Positions 11,888-60,700 of a DNA stretch of 64,000 bases are shown one piece after another. The stretch comes from Prauserella marina (GTDB taxonomy: Bacteria; Actinomycetota; Actinomycetes; Mycobacteriales; Pseudonocardiaceae). The notes beneath the pieces were generated by a model. That model was not told where the DNA came from and did not search any database. It was given only the letters and a program-made list of their open reading frames with translations. The position numbers and the translations under genes were made by a program. The number at the start of each line of letters is the position of its first letter. The stretch's first letter is position 1. The stretch is taken from the NCBI RefSeq assembly GCF_002240355.1, contig NZ_CP016353.1, positions 3,150,501 to 3,214,500 of the forward strand. The letters are read 5' to 3'.

Positions 11888-12846
11888 CGCGGCATCAACT
11901 CCCTTGCCCGCTCGCGCAGTGAATCGCGCCGTGCCGGCTCGACACTCGTGACGAAACCACCGAAGTCCTCGTGCGCGAGCACGTGTTCGGCGACGTAACG
12001 GCGCGCGCCGTCGCAGGCGAGTTCTCCCGCGCTCGCACCGCCCTCGCCGCGCACGGCTCGCATGTACTCGGCGACATGATCGGCGTCGGCCTCGTACTCG
12101 CCGTAGCACTCGTGCGGGTAGCAACCGAACGGTGCGTGCACGACCGCGTCGACCGCGAAATGCGGGATGAGCGTCTCCCTCGGCGCTTGCCGCAGTTCCT
12201 CCGGTTCCACGATCCGCTCCGCGCTGAGCACGACCCTGCGGGCGGCGTGCACCATGTCGACGTCGAGGAAGGGATAGCCGTCGATCTGCGCGTTTCCGTA
12301 CCGGTCGGCCCTGTGGACGTGCACGAACGTCACATCGGGGTGCAGCGCGGGAACGGCGAGCAGCGTGGTTCCCGTGTAAGGGCATTCGACGGTGCGCGCG
12401 CCGGTGTCGAGCGCGAGGTCGGAGCCGAGCATCGTGTGGGTCGGCAGGAACGGCACGCCCATCGCGCCCGCGCGGTAGCGCATCGCCATCGCGAGGTGAC
12501 TCCACTCCTGGTATTCGGCGAGACCCCGTTCGACGTGGTGACGCACGACTCTGGCCAGTCCCCAGCCGTGGCCGATCCCGACCCAGCTCGTCATGAGCGT
12601 GCTCGCCGTTCCCGTCACCAGCAGCAGTTCGGCCTCGAAACAGGAGAGTGGGCGGGAGACCGTCAAGCCCTTGGCCTTGCCGCGCAGCAGCGCGAACACC
12701 AGCGCCATCGGGGTACGGGAGTAGTTGGTCCCTCCGATCGCGACGTGGTCGCCGTCGGCGACGAGTTGGACGGCGCTCGCCGCGCTCACCACCTTGTCCC
12801 GCATCGGTCTGCGGTGGGCTTCGAGGTCGGCGCGTGCCCCGCTCAC
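11884..12846 (-). CDS. CoA-transferase family protein, alpha subunit (IpdA/GctA-like)
   Basis: 320-aa partner of the beta subunit. Recognisable parts are VADGDHVAIGGTNYSRTPMALVFALLR, MGVPFLPTHTMLGSDL, HVHRADRYGNAQIDGYPF and RIVEPEEL. The GTG start overlaps the TGA of the upstream LLM gene (GTGA), and its own TGA overlaps the beta ATG. An upstream extension of the frame lies antisense-free inside the LLM gene and is ignored. Function is inferred as CoA transfer to, or CoA-ester hydrolysis of, an unidentified acid; coupling to a flavin/F420 oxidoreductase suggests a catabolic pathway. Confidence 0.85.
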   Translation of the reverse strand: MSGARADLEAHRRPMRDKVVSAASAVQLVADGDHVAIGGTNYSRTPMALVFALLRGKAKGLTVSRPLSCFEAELLLVTGTASTLMTSWVGIGHGWGLARVVRHHVERGLAEYQEWSHLAMAMRYRAGAMGVPFLPTHTMLGSDLALDTGARTVECPYTGTTLLAVPALHPDVTFVHVHRADRYGNAQIDGYPFLDVDMVHAARRVVLSAERIVEPEELRQAPRETLIPHFAVDAVVHAPFGCYPHECYGEYEADADHVAEYMRAVRGEGGASAGELACDGARRYVAEHVLAHEDFGGFVTSVEPARRDSLRERARELMPR

Positions 12847-13817
12847 CTGGCCACCGCCTCGGTCACCGGCGACCCGGCGGCACCGGGCAGCAGCGGAAGC
12901 ACCTCGGCCGCGATGCGCTCGACCTGGTCCGGCAGGTAGCGATGTGGCACCAGCGCGATGTGCGCCACCCCCGCCTCGATGTGTTCGGTCAGTTGTTCGG
13001 CGCACTGTTCGGGAGTGCCCCTGATGGCGCTTTCCGGGGTGGCGTCACTCCATTCCGGATTGTCGAAGTACTCGGCGAGGAACGGGCCGACCTTGCGGTC
13101 GGCCTCCTCGAACGAGGAGTCGACGCAGATCGGCAACTGGGCGACGTTGGTCAGCTCGGCGGGGTCGCGGCCGGCGTCCTCGGCGTGCTCGGTGATCCGT
13201 TTCCACGAGCGAGCGAAGGCGTCGGCCCGGTAGAAGTAGGTGAGCCAGCCGTCGCCCATCGTCGCCACCCTGCGCAGCACCCTGTCGACGTAGCCGCCGA
13301 TGAGGACCTTCGGGCGGGCCGACGGCCTCGGCAGCATGCGCACCCTGCGGAAGCTCAGCTCGTCCCATTCCCCGGTGACCTCGTCGTCGGTCCACAACCG
13401 GTAGCACAGGTCGAGGTTGCGCTCGAATCGCTTGCCCCGTGAGCGGAATGGGGAACCGGTCGCGGCGAACTCCCTTTCGTACCACCCGGCGGCGACGCCG
13501 AGGGTGAGCCTGCCGCCAGAGGTGGCCTGTAAGGTGGCCGCCGTCTTGGCCAGCAGGGCGGGATCCCTGATGGGGAGGACGAGCACACCGGTTCCCAGTT
13601 CGATGTCCGAGGTGTGCGCGGCGAGCGTCGTGAGCGTGGACAGCGCCTCGAAACAGGGGAAGGGCTGTTTCGAGCCGAGGAAGAGATGGTCCCACGCCCA
13701 CAGCGACCGGAAGCCGAGTCGTTCGGCGGTGCGCGCGTAGTCGATGAGCCCGGTGAAATTGGGATTGCCCTCGGCCGAGGTGAAGTTCTCGATGGCGAGG
13801 CCGTACGTGACTGTCAT
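12843..13817 (-). CDS. LLM-class (F420- or flavin-dependent) oxidoreductase
   Basis: 324-aa luciferase-like TIM-barrel enzyme. Typical features are YARTAERLGFRSLWAWDHLF near the N-terminus, TLAAHTSDIELGTGVLVLPIRDPALLAKTAATLQATSGGRLTLGVAAGWYEREFAATG written across residues about 65-125, and RPKVLIGGY. The ATG at 13817 gives the usual N-terminus (MTVTYGLAIENF) with GAGAGG upstream; the open frame continues 22 codons further but without a ribosome site. First gene of the operon with the two CoA-transferase subunits. The cofactor (F420 or FMN) cannot be decided from the sequence. Confidence 0.88.
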   Translation of the reverse strand: MTVTYGLAIENFTSAEGNPNFTGLIDYARTAERLGFRSLWAWDHLFLGSKQPFPCFEALSTLTTLAAHTSDIELGTGVLVLPIRDPALLAKTAATLQATSGGRLTLGVAAGWYEREFAATGSPFRSRGKRFERNLDLCYRLWTDDEVTGEWDELSFRRVRMLPRPSARPKVLIGGYVDRVLRRVATMGDGWLTYFYRADAFARSWKRITEHAEDAGRDPAELTNVAQLPICVDSSFEEADRKVGPFLAEYFDNPEWSDATPESAIRGTPEQCAEQLTEHIEAGVAHIALVPHRYLPDQVERIAAEVLPLLPGAAGSPVTEAVAR

Positions 13818-29903: not shown

Positions 29904-29987
29904 CGCGAGTCCCCCGCCTCGGACGCCGAGATCCGCATCCGGGCTGCCGAGATCCGCACTCGGAACGTCGAGATCCGCGCCCGGAGC
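29904..29987 (+). repeat. Array A of 21-bp intergenic repeats (4 units)
   Basis: Four contiguous 21-bp units (boundaries 29904, 29925, 29946, 29967). The best unit carries CCGAGATCCGCACTCGG, i.e. a CCGAG/CTCGG stem with a 7-base loop. A degenerate fifth unit may follow. All units point in the same direction. The array lies between a membrane protein gene and the ABC importer operon, both on the plus strand. Two relatives are at 51.2 and 57.0 kb. Confidence 0.88.
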
Positions 29988-30071
29988 CGTGAGCACTGTC
30001 TCCGGCTCCGGGCGTATCCGGGCGAAACGAGGCCCTGTTGCCCTCCCGGAAGAGATATCCACAATAGACTG

Positions 30072-38831: not shown

Positions 38832-39860
38832 TCAGTGTCCTGAGGTGAACAAGGGGCTCAGGCTGAGCAGCCGATCGCTCGACGCGGGCAGTGCATCGGC
38901 ATCGCGGGCGACTCTCGCCGCCGCCGCTGCCCTGGCCGCCTCGGGTGCCTGCTGTATGCCGAGCGCGACGCGGGCGCGTTCGGCCAGCAGCGCGAGCCGG
39001 AGGCCCAGTCGCCTCGCGAGCGGGAACGGGCTGGGTCGCAGGATGCCTCCGTTTTCGTGGTAGGCCGCCAGTCCCTTGGAAAGCCGGTCGCGGCGGGGGA
39101 GCCCGTCGGGGCCCTCGCAGAACACGAACAGCGCGTGCGCGGCTTCGAGCGTCGCGCAGTCGGGTCCCGCGGTGTCCCAGTCGATGAGCACGGGGCCTGT
39201 CGTCCCCGCCATCAGCACGTTGCGGGGCAGCAGATCCCGATGGGTCAGCACGGGGTCGCCGCACGCGGCGAAGGCGGCCACGACCCGGTCGGTGAGCTCG
39301 CCGATCAAGGTGAGCCGCTTCCGCAGCGACGGCGCCCAATCGTGGCCTCCGGTCTCGCCCCGCTCCACCAGTTCCAGCCAGGCGGCGAGAGGCTGGACGC
39401 CGTACCAGTCCTGGCTTGGCTCGGCCTCGCCGCCGCCGCCGTCGCCGCCGCCGCCGCCGTCGCCGTCGGGCTCTGGCCGGTGCAGGATCGCGAGCACGGT
39501 CCCCAGCCACGCCGAGACGTCGTCACCATCGGCGGGCGGCCCGCCTTCGAGCCATTCGTAGGCCCTGACGAGTCCGTGCCCGTCGCCGAGGTCGGCGAGC
39601 GGTCCTCGGCCGGTCACCGGCCGCAATTGCCGGGGCACGGGAACTCCCGCTGCCGCGGCCCTGTTCTCGACGGAGATGGCGATGGCGAGATCCGGAAGCC
39701 GCCGTGGTTGCGCGGCCGGTCTTTTGACGAGAAAAGAACCAGCGGCGGTGTCCAGCCGCCAGGTTTCCTCCGCGCTGCCGGCGATCGGTGTCAGCGGGCC
39801 GGTGTGCTCAGGAAGGCCGAACGCCGCGCACACCGCCATCGGATCGGGGGAGATCGGCAC
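38832..39860 (-). CDS. Aminoglycoside-phosphotransferase-fold kinase
   Basis: About 342-aa APH-family phosphotransferase. It has a nucleotide-lobe lysine in SFLVKRPA, the catalytic loop THRDLLPRNVLM and a metal-binding LIDWDTAGP. A glycine/aspartate stretch of 16 residues (about 133-148), coded by a CCG-type trinucleotide run at 39425-39475, interrupts the linker before QDWYGVQPL. The start is uncertain: GTG 39860 chosen, TTG 39869 and ATG 39839 possible, none with a clear ribosome site. Substrates of chromosomal members vary, so drug resistance should not be assumed. Confidence 0.83.
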   Translation of the reverse strand: MPISPDPMAVCAAFGLPEHTGPLTPIAGSAEETWRLDTAAGSFLVKRPAAQPRRLPDLAIAISVENRAAAAGVPVPRQLRPVTGRGPLADLGDGHGLVRAYEWLEGGPPADGDDVSAWLGTVLAILHRPEPDGDGGGGGDGGGGEAEPSQDWYGVQPLAAWLELVERGETGGHDWAPSLRKRLTLIGELTDRVVAAFAACGDPVLTHRDLLPRNVLMAGTTGPVLIDWDTAGPDCATLEAAHALFVFCEGPDGLPRRDRLSKGLAAYHENGGILRPSPFPLARRLGLRLALLAERARVALGIQQAPEAARAAAAARVARDADALPASSDRLLSLSPLFTSGH

Positions 39861-51172: not shown

Positions 51173-51365
51173 CGCGAGTCCCCAGTCCTGGCGCGCGAGT
51201 CCCGCGTTCGGGACGCCGAAATCCGCACTCAGGCGCGCGAGTTCGGCATTCGGGTCGCCGAGATGCGTACTCGGGCGCGCGAGGTCCGCACTGGCGCGGG
51301 TGGACCTGAACGCGGATGTCGCGTGCACCGATGCGGATCTCGCGTGCCTGAGCGGGGGACTCGCG
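51173..51365. repeat. Array B of 21-bp intergenic repeats (6 forward + 3 inverted units)
   Basis: Six forward 21-bp units (51173-51298) are followed after 4 bp by three units in reverse orientation (51303-51365). Units share the CGAG-ATCCGCA-CTCGG core with substitutions, e.g. CCGAGATGCGTACTCGG near 51258. The array occupies the divergent gap between mntH and the formate-dehydrogenase-like gene. Confidence 0.88.
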
Positions 51366-56266: not shown

Positions 56267-56396
56267 GGGGCCAGGCCCCGCACGCGCGGAGCCCGCGTCC
56301 GGTGTGGATGCCGTCGCTCGCCGGGCCGGGGGAGAATGGGCGAGTTCTTGGTGTCGGCCTGGTTCGGCTCATGCGCCACGGGGAGGGGGAGCCGCC

Positions 56397-57008
56397 GTGC
56401 ACACTGTCGTCGACAGTCCGCTCGGGCCGTTGACGCTCGTCGGTGACGATGATCTTGCCGGTGGCGTCGCTTTGACTGGTTTGTACCTGGAGCGGCAGTT
56501 GTACCGGCCAGGGGAGGAAGCGTTCGGTGAGCGGGCGGCGGAGCCCTTCGCGGGGATGATCGAGCAGTTGAGCGCCTACTTCGCGGGTCGGCTGACCGAA
56601 TTCGACGTGCCTACGGCGTTGTCCGGTACGCCGTTTCAGCGTCAGGTGTGGGAGATGCTGCGGGAGATTCCCTACGGCGAGACGGTGACCTATGGCTGGC
56701 TGGCTCGCCGGATGGGCAAGCCAGCTGCCGCGCGGGCGGTCGGACTGGCGAACGGCAAGAACCCGGTGAGCATCATCGTGCCGTGTCACCGGGTGGTCGG
56801 CGCGAATGGGGACCTCACCGGCTATGGCGGTGGCGTCGAGCGGAAGCGGCACCTGCTTGCCCTGGAGCGGTCAACCGCCGCACGGCTCCAACCGTGCGAG
56901 TCCCGCGCCCAGGATGCCGAGATCCGCACTCAGGGCGGCGAGTCCCGCGCCGCGGACGTCGAGATCCGCACCCAGCCGCGCGAGATCCGCACTCGGGCGG
57001 GTGGGTAA
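56397..57008 (+). CDS. ogt: Methylated-DNA--protein-cysteine methyltransferase with repeat-encoded tail
   Basis: 203-aa MGMT/Ogt that transfers the O6-alkyl group of guanine to its own cysteine. The DNA-binding wing FQRQVWEMLREIPYGETVTYGWLARRMGKPAAARAVGLANGKNP leads to the active site PCHRV (Cys at about 130). It then runs GANGDLTGYGGGVERKRHLLALE, where the family normally ends. The last roughly 40 residues (AEIRTQ-type repeats) are coded by the five forward units of a 21-bp intergenic array and are probably non-functional. GTG 56397 has GGGGAGGGGGA upstream; longer starts lie antisense to yceI. Confidence 0.9.
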   Translation: MHTVVDSPLGPLTLVGDDDLAGGVALTGLYLERQLYRPGEEAFGERAAEPFAGMIEQLSAYFAGRLTEFDVPTALSGTPFQRQVWEMLREIPYGETVTYGWLARRMGKPAAARAVGLANGKNPVSIIVPCHRVVGANGDLTGYGGGVERKRHLLALERSTAARLQPCESRAQDAEIRTQGGESRAADVEIRTQPREIRTRAGG

Positions 57009-57190
57009 AGCCGAACCAGGTCAGGCGCTCAACCCGGCTGTGGACATCCGGGCCGTGGACATGGCATCGGGGCGCGGGCCGTTCGGGCCGAGTGCGGATC
57101 TCGGCGACCCGAACGCGGATCTCACCTGCCTGGATGCGGATCTCGGCGTCCTGAGCGTGGAAGTCGGTGGTCGTGAGCGCGGATCTCGCG
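56895..57190. repeat. Array C of 21-bp intergenic repeats (5 forward + 5 inverted units)
   Basis: Five forward 21-bp units (56895-56999), a non-repetitive centre of 86 bp, then five inverted units (57086-57190). The two halves could pair into a long cruciform or RNA stem. It lies between the convergent ogt and GlsB/YeaQ genes and ends 10 bp from the latter. The forward units are inside the ogt reading frame. Confidence 0.9.
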
Positions 57191-57199
57191 TGCCTGGCG

Positions 57200-57472
57200 T
57201 CAGTTCCGGCGTCTCCCCGGTGAACCGATCACGAGCCGGTAGATGGCGAGAATGATCAAGGCGCCCAGAATGGCGAGTCCCCAGGTCCGGGCCTCGAAGA
57301 ACCGGCCGAGGTCGACATCGAACAACGAACGGCCCACCCAGCCGCCCAGCATCGCGCCACCGACACCGAGCAGGATGGTGATGATGCATCCGCCAGGGTC
57401 TTTGCCGGGCATGAGCATCTTGGCGATGCCCCCCGCGATGAGACCCAGGATGATCCAACTGACGATACCCAT
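57200..57472 (-). CDS. GlsB/YeaQ/YmgE-family membrane protein
   Basis: 90-aa transglycosylase-associated-type stress membrane protein with three helices. It has MGIVSWIILGLIAGGIAKMLMPGKDPGGCIITILLGVGGAMLGGWVGRSLF, and AILGALIILAIYRLV near the C-terminus. The glycine-rich first helix and MPGKDPGG loop are family signatures. The function is only generally linked to stress. Confidence 0.93.
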   Translation of the reverse strand: MGIVSWIILGLIAGGIAKMLMPGKDPGGCIITILLGVGGAMLGGWVGRSLFDVDLGRFFEARTWGLAILGALIILAIYRLVIGSPGRRRN

Positions 57473-57701
57473 GGCCCCACCCTACGACCCCGGAACCCGG
57501 CGTCTCCGAACCGGGCGAACCGCACCATCCACGCGGCACCCGCGCCGGGACCGCGACCGCGATCATGGCCGCACCTTCTCGATCCACAATGGATTCAACG
57601 CGAGTTGACGCGCCGGGACGATATTTTCCTCCCCGCCGGTGAAACCGTTGCCCCGGAACACAATCCCGGTTCACCGGAAGTGGCGGTACATTGGTCACGA
57701 C

Positions 57702-60700
57702 ATGCGTATCGAGCTTCTCGGCGAGTTCGCCGTCGAGAGCAATGGGGACCTGATCGACGCGCGCCGCTGGCGGTTGCGCAAGGCCCGCCTGCTCGTGATC
57801 GCCCTCGCCCTTGAGCCCGCGCAACGGCTGCACAGGGACAAGGTGATCGAGCGGTTGTGGCCCGGGGCAGTGCCTTCCTCGGCCAACCACAATCTGCACC
57901 AGGCCCTCTACGTCGCGCGAAAGGCCATTGGTGAAGCGGGCGCGCTGACCGTGCGCGACGAGAACGTGCTGCTCAACGCCGACGGCGACGTCGCGGTGGA
58001 CGTCGTCGAGTTCGAGCGTGCCGCTGAGATGGCGCTCGCCACTGGCGACGAGCGTGACCTGCTGGCCGCGCTCGCGGTCTACCGGGGCGACCTCGCGCCC
58101 GACCTCGCCTACACGGACTGGCTGGAGAGGCGAAGGGCCACGGTGCGAGAAACCTGGCACGCGGTGTTGCTGCGGGTGGCCGAACTCAAGCTCGCGGGCG
58201 GTGCCTTCGACGAGGCCAACCTGCACTTCACGAGGGTGCTTTCGGCCGACCCCTACAACGAGATCGCCGTGCGGGGCACGATGTCCGTGCTCGCCGCGAC
58301 CGGCCGGGTGCCCGAGGCGCTGGCGAGGTACGAGCGGCTCAGGGACGACCTGCGGGAACTGTCGGGAGCCGATCCCGATGCCCTCACGAAAGGGCTGTTC
58401 CGCCGCCTGCTGCATGGTTCGGCGGAAGGCGGGAGCGCGCCCGTGCGACCTCGGCTGCCTTCGGCGTTGAGCAGCTTCGTCGGAAGAGACCGCGAGCTGA
58501 GCGAGGTCGGGGCGTTGCTGGGCCGTACCCGGCTGCTGACGCTCACCGGCGCTGGCGGTTGCGGGAAAACCCGGCTCGCCGTCGAGGCCGCTCGCGCCGC
58601 CGCCGGTGCGTACCCCGAAGGGGTGTGGTTCGCCGACTTGGCCGCACTGCGCGAACCGGCGCTGGTACCCGACGCGATCGCGGCCGCGCTCGATCTGACC
58701 CCCGGCGCGGGGCCGGATCAGACGAGGTCACTCGTCGAGCAGCTCGGTCACGGCCGCCGCCTCGTCGTGCTCGACAACTGTGAGCAGGTGGTGCAGGCCT
58801 GCGCGCGGGTGTGCGGCACGGTGCTGGCGCACTGTCCCGGAATCCGGATCCTGGCCACCAGCAGGGAGACGCTGCGCGTCGAGGGTGAGATCACGTTCCG
58901 GGTCCCCTCGCTGCGCATACCCGAGTCCACCTGCGATCCGGATCGGCTTGCCGATTTCGAATCGGTGCGGCTGTTCGTCGAGCGGGCCGCGAGCGTGCGC
59001 CCCGGATTCGTGCTCGGCACCGGCAACGCCGGGGCGATCGCCGGCCTGTGCAGGCGGCTCGACGGCATGCCGCTCGCGCTGGAACTGGCGGCGGCGCGGA
59101 TCGCGTTGCTCGAACCGGACGAGATACTGGCCAGGCTCGGCGACGCGCTCACGGTACTGGGGACGGGAACGTTCGGCGCGACGAGACACCAGACGTTGCG
59201 CGCGGCGTTGCAGTGGAGCTATGACCTGCTCGACGCCGACGAGCGGGTGCTTCTGCGCAGGCTCTCCGTTTTCGCTGGGCTGTTCTCGCTCGACGCCGCC
59301 GAGATCGTCGGCGGGCCCGCGCCGCTGGGCAAGGACAGGGTGCTCGGCCTGCTCGGCAGGCTCGTGGACAAGTCGCTGGTACATCGCGAGCCTTCGGGGG
59401 AGGGCACGAGGTACCGGTTGCTGGACACCGTGCGGCAGTTCGCCGCCGAGGTCTTGCGGGAGGCGGGGGAGCACCGCGCGACGGCGGCGGCGCACTGCGC
59501 CTACTTTCTCGACGTCGCCGGACGACACGATCCGGAACACGTGGTCGGTGTCGTCAGGGAGAATCCCCGGCTACTCGACCACGATCACGACAATTTCCGG
59601 GCCGCGCTGCGCTGGTCGCTCGCGGCCGACCCGTCCGCGGCACTGACGCTGGCCGCGCGGCTGTGGCGGTACTGGTTTCTCAGGGGGCACGCCGTCGAGG
59701 GCGCGGGCTGGCTTGAGAAAGCGCTCGCCGCGGCCCCTTCGCCGAGCACGACACGTGCCAGAGCGCTCGTCGGGCTGACCGGTCTCGACGCGCGGCGAGG
59801 CCGGGCCGACCGGCTGCTGCGCGAGGGCGGGGAGGCCGTCACGCTCGCCGAGCGCCTCGCGGGGGCGGACGTCGCCGAGCTGTACCGGCTGGTGTACGCC
59901 ACGCTGGTGTGGGGCACGTTCGACGTGACGGAGGCCGAGCGGATCGCCGAGGACGTCAGGGAGCGCGCGGCCGGTCCCGGACTGCGCGCCGGTGCGGTGT
60001 GGCTCGCCGGTATGTGCGCGTTGTCGCGTGAGGACGCGACCGCGGCGGGCTCGCTGTTCGGGGAGTGTCTCGTCGCCGTGGAAGCCCTCGATCCGGGCGG
60101 TCCCGCTTTCCTGCCGGTCATCACCCCGTGTATCCAGCTCGTCCCGGTCGGGGAGCGGTTCGTGCCTTCGTTCGAGGAGTCGCTGCTGGTCGGCAGGAGG
60201 GTGGGTGCCGAGCAGGCTGCGGGCTACGTACTCGGGGCACTCGGTTACGCGGCACGGCTGGAGCACGAACTCGGTCTCGCCACGGTGACGGTGCGGCGGT
60301 CGGTCGAGCGGTTCGGCGCGCTCGGCGACGATCTCGGCAGGGCACACGGTCTGCATCACCTCGGGTGCGTGTTGCGCGATGCCCGGATCTTCGCGGAGGC
60401 CGAGGACCGGTTCGCCGAGGCGCTTGCGATCCGGCACTGGCTCGGTGATCGGCGGGGAGAGCTGCTTACCCGGGCCAACCTGGCTTTGTCCTGGGCGGTG
60501 GCGGGCGATGCCGAGCGGGGACGACACGCGGCACGAGACTGTCTCGGCGCGTTCGAGGCGGCGGAGGATGTGCCGGGGATCGCGGGAGCGCTGGGACTGC
60601 TGGCCAACATCGAGCTTTCCGCTGGGAAGCCGCTGGCGGCGAAGGAACTCTACGCCGAAGCGGTACGAGGGTTCGGCGATCAGTCGTGGCCGAGGATCGA

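Follow-up and report, generated by a model that had tools for sequence, protein, structure and literature searches.

The window analysed here, a stretch of 64,000 nucleotides from Prauserella marina, contains three arrays of a 21-bp tandem repeat unit, designated A, B and C (Table 1). Array C was originally predicted to consist of five forward and five inverted units facing each other across an 86-bp centre, between convergent genes. The observation of five units facing five is confirmed, the flanking ogt-like and GlsB/YeaQ-like genes do converge on the array, and the centre measures 86 bp when counted to the conserved core at 57088 and 81 bp otherwise. The inner units of the two arms contain a perfect 16-nt inverted match (56981-56996 / 57088-57103). 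Because the ogt frame covers all five forward units, the repeats encode the C-terminal tail of its product, in which the Pfam match stops at residue 158 of 203; the repeat-encoded tail, ESRAQDAEIRTQGGESRAADVEIRTQPREIRTRAGG, lies just before the stop codon (region 56871-57008). An Rfam search restricted to 56300-57800 returned a single weak match far below the gathering score, which we take as chance.

Table 1. Coordinates of repeat arrays and flanking genes in the window
Feature	Position	Strand	Description
Array A	29906..29989	+	One-armed, four units: three called, first (outer type CGAGTCCCCCG) by eye
Array B left arm	51175..51300	+	Six units: five called, outermost (51175-51195, outer type) by eye
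Array B right arm	51301..51363	-	Three inverted units
ogt-like gene (6-O-methylguanine-DNA methyltransferase)	56397..57008	+	Frame spans entire array C left arm
Array C left arm	56897..57001	+	Five 21-bp units, family consensus CGAG[AT]TCCGC[GA][CT]TC[AG]GGnCGC
Array C centre	57002..57082	.	Without match to other centres
Array C right arm	57083..57188	-	Five inverted units
GlsB/YeaQ-like gene (Transgly_assoc)	57200..57472	-	Converges on ogt; 11 bp between gene end and array C right arm

The arrangement of six forward and three inverted units proposed for array B also stands, with the sixth forward unit recognized by eye beside the five forward and three inverted units that were called. Array B does not lie between convergent genes: its neighbours, encoding Nramp on the - strand and a 2-hydroxyacid dehydrogenase on the + strand, are divergent. 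A search with the array B region gave no match, an uninformative result. A (CGC)n run, imperfect and 12.7 copies long, also lies in the window at 39428-39465.

Abundance and range of the repeat unit

Allowing at most one mismatch, GAGATCCGCAC occurs 14 times in the window, against a mean of 3.03 and a largest count of 8 in 100 shuffles. In the source genome (G000; 6.99 Mb, 2 contigs) the 14-nt core occurs 343 times at the same stringency (157 forward, 186 reverse) and the reversed-pattern control 0 times. A position matrix for the unit was built from 864 kb of G000, comprising the window and 40 further stretches. Searching this first sample yielded 474 matches, of which 359 were kept for having an in-phase neighbour or a high score; reversed and complemented sequence together gave 24 matches at equal score, counted before the neighbour/score filter. 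The unit consensus begins with CGAG and ends with CGC or CGG.

A single pattern, CGAGT repeated every 21 bp, served to survey the range of the family. Three in-phase CGAGT are present in 113 of 297 Pseudonocardiaceae genomes, with up to 391 matches per genome, and by hand count 45 of the 297 hold at least 10, a level that the reversed control pattern reaches in 4 of 297; among 245 genomes of the same class outside the family the maximum is 5. The G000-type pattern is narrower: G000 has 218 matches, and none of the other 296 family genomes has more than 13. A strict two-unit pattern search of genome contigs returned nothing, and a looser one returned four loci, in Prauserella endophytica and Amycolatopsis thermalba. 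A related repeat of the GTGTCGAACGTTCGGGACC type, with a 22-bp period, is found in another genome (G223; L063:6988-7170, L064, L065), where the L063 copy is inverted and lies between convergent genes. Within one Prauserella congener (G001), 20 spaced stretches (L163-L182, 400 kb) contain zero arrays, and a 6-kb query with one array has 60 matches, most of them, among the matches listed, on its arms; arrays may be patchy along this chromosome.

Array layout and polarity

Array calling covered 944 kb of G000, including the window, 240, 267 and 110 kb of the three Prauserella congeners (G001, G002 and G003, respectively) and 97 kb of A. thermalba (G129). Two-sided arrays were defined as having at least two units per side, with single-unit runs excluded; arms separated by over 500 bp were scored as separate one-armed arrays, as is the case at L047. 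Under this definition, two-sided arrays account for 21/46 arrays in G000, 17/27 in G001, 20/30 in G002, 4/5 in G003 and 4/5 in G129, and one-armed arrays for 25/46 in G000, 10/27 in G001, 10/30 in G002 and 6/7 in a further genome, G227.

Random orientation of units across many arrays, named in the original prediction as counter-evidence, was looked for and not found: in the sampled stretches all 62 two-sided Prauserella arrays (21, 17, 20 and 4 in G000 to G003) run + then -, that is, inward. These 62 arrays are not all independent, as one locus (L015) contains a duplicated pair and orthologous sites recur; the G001 and G002 stretches were chosen by similarity to a 6-kb query holding one G000 array, and half of the G000 stretches came from a partial match list. 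Tandem gene contexts account for 24 of the inward arrays and divergent ones for 7. We considered and rejected the idea that unit direction is set by the nearest gene. With genes turned to run left to right, the right arm is antisense in all 24 two-sided tandem-context arrays, or in all 23 if array C is left out; the latter entered this count as tandem, though convergent, because the short GlsB gene was missed by the gene caller. The mirror layout is real and is not set by gene direction.

Polarity is reversed in A. thermalba, where 4/4 two-sided arrays run - then +, one doing so twice in succession. The same order is seen in other genomes of the family (G204, 6/6; G055, 9/9), the Prauserella order in G200 (3/3) and G227 (1/1), and a mixture in G238 (2 and 1) and G213 (8 and 2). 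Most species sampled thus have one uniform polarity, and which one it is depends on the species. The arms also have a preferred first unit: read in unit direction, the first unit is CGAGTCCC in 44/64 arms of G000 versus 5/304 other units, in 36/44 versus 96/284 in G001 and in 36/48 versus 79/259 in G002. The preference is weak in G129 (5/10 versus 5/31, p 0.045) and is not seen in G003 (1/8 versus 1/33). This unit type sits at the outside of arrays in Prauserella and at their centre in A. thermalba, where the arms point outward.

A local duplication is seen at L015:14536-16888, where the 60-bp centres and the innermost units of two inward arrays, separated by about 2 kb, are identical. At L047:12313-13887, the two arms of an inward pair enclose a 1179-bp centre with a called gene (12492-13415, +).

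Gene context

Gene contexts rest on a gene caller written for this analysis. In G001-G003, array edges facing the 3′ end of a gene lie at a median of 9 bp from the stop codon, with 74/89 within 30 bp, and edges facing a 5′ end at a median of 119 bp from the start, with 3/34 within 30 bp. The first G000 sample behaves likewise, with 24/34 arms at 60 bp or less from a facing 3′ end and 1/26 from a facing 5′ end. Convergent contexts are enriched in G001 (13/27 arrays, p 5e-6) and G002 (15/29 arrays with known context, p 3e-7), in both cases relative to a spaced sample of G001, where 19/155 intergenic regions are convergent; in G000 the spaced sample shows no significant enrichment (3/19 versus 8/140, p 0.13). 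Divergent contexts are depleted in G001 (2/27) and G002 (2/29), and hold 9/46 arrays in G000.

Predicted folding and arm matching

The two halves of array C had been proposed to form a long stem with nested small hairpins, which might act as a terminator, insulator or topology element. The long stem is indeed predicted for array C, with a folding z-score of -6.15 (200 shuffles). The z-scores of 19 G000 elements range from -2.8 to -20.4 (12 shuffles each), and those of 16 elements from other species from -5.5 to -16.7. Flipping the right arm of the G000 elements costs a mean of 63 kcal/mol, and the predicted long stem is due largely to the inverted orientation of the arms. Nested hairpins are unsupported, as arms folded alone resemble shuffles on average (mean z of 0.67 in G000, -1.25 in G001 and -0.21 in G002), with values below -3 in 2/53, 6/41 and 0/46 arms, respectively (8/140 overall).

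Arms in G000 measure 42-437 bp, and the centres, which would form the loops, reach 364 nt. When the 19 centres were compared all against all, only the two L015 centres matched over their length, the rest sharing matches of 11-21 nt. Between 50900 and 57800 there are three T-run terminator-like sites, against a mean of 2.7 in shuffles, and none lies in array C or B.

Site-specific matching between arms was not detected in five genomes: 24 of 25 tests gave p > 0.05 and one gave p 0.02, with only four elements available in G003 and five in G129. Since the arms of an array match each other no better than they match those of other arrays in the same genome, their complementarity derives from the shared unit and not from site-by-site compensation. 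This result, like the many one-armed arrays, speaks against selection for pairing at individual sites. Co-evolution of the stem at single sites was likewise not found, one earlier test having given p 0.026 in one of three measures.

As a separate observation, of the two strands, the deposited + strand gives the more stable fold in 54/67 two-sided elements (G000, G001, G002, G003 and G129) and in 31/36 of the elements in convergent contexts. The bias reverses when the input is reversed (12/67) and hence lies in the data; replication-strand skew would be a guess at its cause.

Orthologous sites

Two orthologous convergent sites were verified through flanking proteins that share 72-91% identity with their G000 counterparts. 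The flanking genes of site 1 resemble dapC and dapD, and those of site 2 are tatB-like and mrp-like. At site 1 all four Prauserella species carry two-sided arrays, which differ in the letters and the number of their units. Arrays are likewise present at site 2 in all four, two-sided in G000 and G002 and, according to the array finder, with the left arm only in G001 and G003. Across the species sampled, the layout is kept and the repeat letters change. A third site was not counted as orthologous because its flanking proteins had no match between G000 and the congeners, and a search with the SARP neighbour, which gave many paralogues, was dropped. For the ogt product, the three congeners yielded nothing at E 1e-20, so that array C has no comparable orthologous site.

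Discussion

Our best guess is that these arrays are repeat-built hairpin boundaries at gene ends, resembling REP/BIME elements but forming a distinct family. We put at roughly even the chance that 21-bp interspersed tandem repeats of the Pseudonocardiaceae, often arranged as two facing polar arms, mark gene ends. Transcription through an array would allow its two arms to pair in the RNA as a long imperfect hairpin, which might end or stabilise the transcript, and between convergent genes a single element could serve both. The units would be copied and homogenised genome-wide by recombination, which would keep left and right arms complementary whichever arrays they come from. Evidence for such gene-end hairpins comes from the inward orientation of 62/62 arrays, an inverted layout that persists under opposite polarity, placement at 3′ ends, the convergent enrichment in G001 and G002, the two orthologous sites and the cost of flipping an arm. 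Evidence against them comes from the lack of arm matching, the one-armed arrays, the divergent placements in G000, the long centres and the lack of a T-run. The combination of layout and turnover is in keeping with a stem, of RNA or DNA, at the ends of genes. It is more doubtful that many Pseudonocardiaceae possess dedicated, self-homogenising mirror arrays at gene ends that replace standard terminators, with letters rewritten in each lineage, polarity invertible and the mirror layout retained because pairing alone counts.

The absence of site-specific arm matching speaks for neutral or selfish repeats, a serious rival to which we assign an appreciable, if minority, probability. Slippage would lengthen the arms of such repeats and recombination would spread them from intergenic edges; arm direction would be fixed by some copying mechanism, the mirror layout would arise as a by-product and gene ends would be merely tolerated. 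This account is also favoured by the frequency in G000 of one-armed arrays and of placements between divergent genes, by the strong arm polarity seen there in the CGAGTCCC first unit and by the wide variation in copy number among genomes. It sits less well with the arrays found at two orthologous sites in four species despite letter turnover, and with the recurrence of the mirror layout under opposite polarity in other species.

The strict 21-bp phase, equivalent to two helical turns, and the conserved CGAG start could instead reflect DNA sites for a nucleoid, supercoiling or RNA-polymerase road-block protein that binds both arms, and in G000 arrays do occur in every gene context. Beyond CGAG, however, the unit varies by species, and the period is 22 bp in G223; this explanation seems improbable. 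Least credible is a small transposable element carrying transposase-site arrays at its two ends (a MITE, or Tn7-like ends): it would account for a pair of inward arrays built of short sites and for their preferred outer first unit, but the 19 centres compared share no homologous body beyond the L015 pair, no Y1_Tnp (RAYT) domain was found in the six genomes searched, and the arrays stay put at two orthologous places.

Gene-end hairpins or not, the arrays are numerous natural elements that preserve position and layout but not sequence, and with them one can ask directly whether bacterial interspersed repeats are driven by pairing, protein binding or repeat copying. They bear on how high-G+C actinobacteria of the Pseudonocardiaceae separate convergent genes and, as in ogt, can extend a protein by a tail that the repeats encode.

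The literature matches listed included no account of these repeats, in a search whose coverage mostly excludes subscription journals. REP/BIME elements, as described in PMC3733652, have many intergenic copies and opposite-orientation pairs able to build larger structures, lie mostly between convergent and same-direction genes, and are in some cases species-specific. The Prauserella copies are similarly opposed, at gene 3′ ends and between convergent genes (in G001-G003; not significantly so in spaced G000). Unlike the 20-40 bp REP palindrome, they consist of tandem 21-bp units whose arms alone have no unusual fold. The same paper distinguishes GTAG- and CGTC-tagged REPs, the latter said to lack a dedicated RAYT, and its text contains none of the four Pseudonocardiales names searched for. 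Judged by eye, our unit carries neither tag, starting with CGAG and ending with CGC/CGG, and the RAYT domain search (Y1_Tnp) was positive in 0/6 genomes, against 5/14 in the control.

The STAR elements of staphylococci, as described in PMC3532100, are interspersed intergenic direct repeats of variable copy number at stable loci and with no known function, built on a 14-bp motif, T(G/A/T)TGTTG(G/T)GGCCC(C/A), whose copies are spaced by 40 bp or more; neither "inverted" nor "convergent" occurs as a word in that paper. The 21-bp unit consensus differs, by eye, from this motif. Hairpin and clustered-hairpin intrinsic terminators are described in PMC8355165 as structures just past stop codons for which poly A/U trails are not necessary. 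Arrays C and B differ from the intrinsic type in having no U-tract after the stem, and the Prauserella elements more generally in deriving one predicted stem from two tandem arrays with a unit shared genome-wide. What they have in common with it is a stable predicted hairpin after the stop codon, as judged from the fold of array C and from the edge positions.
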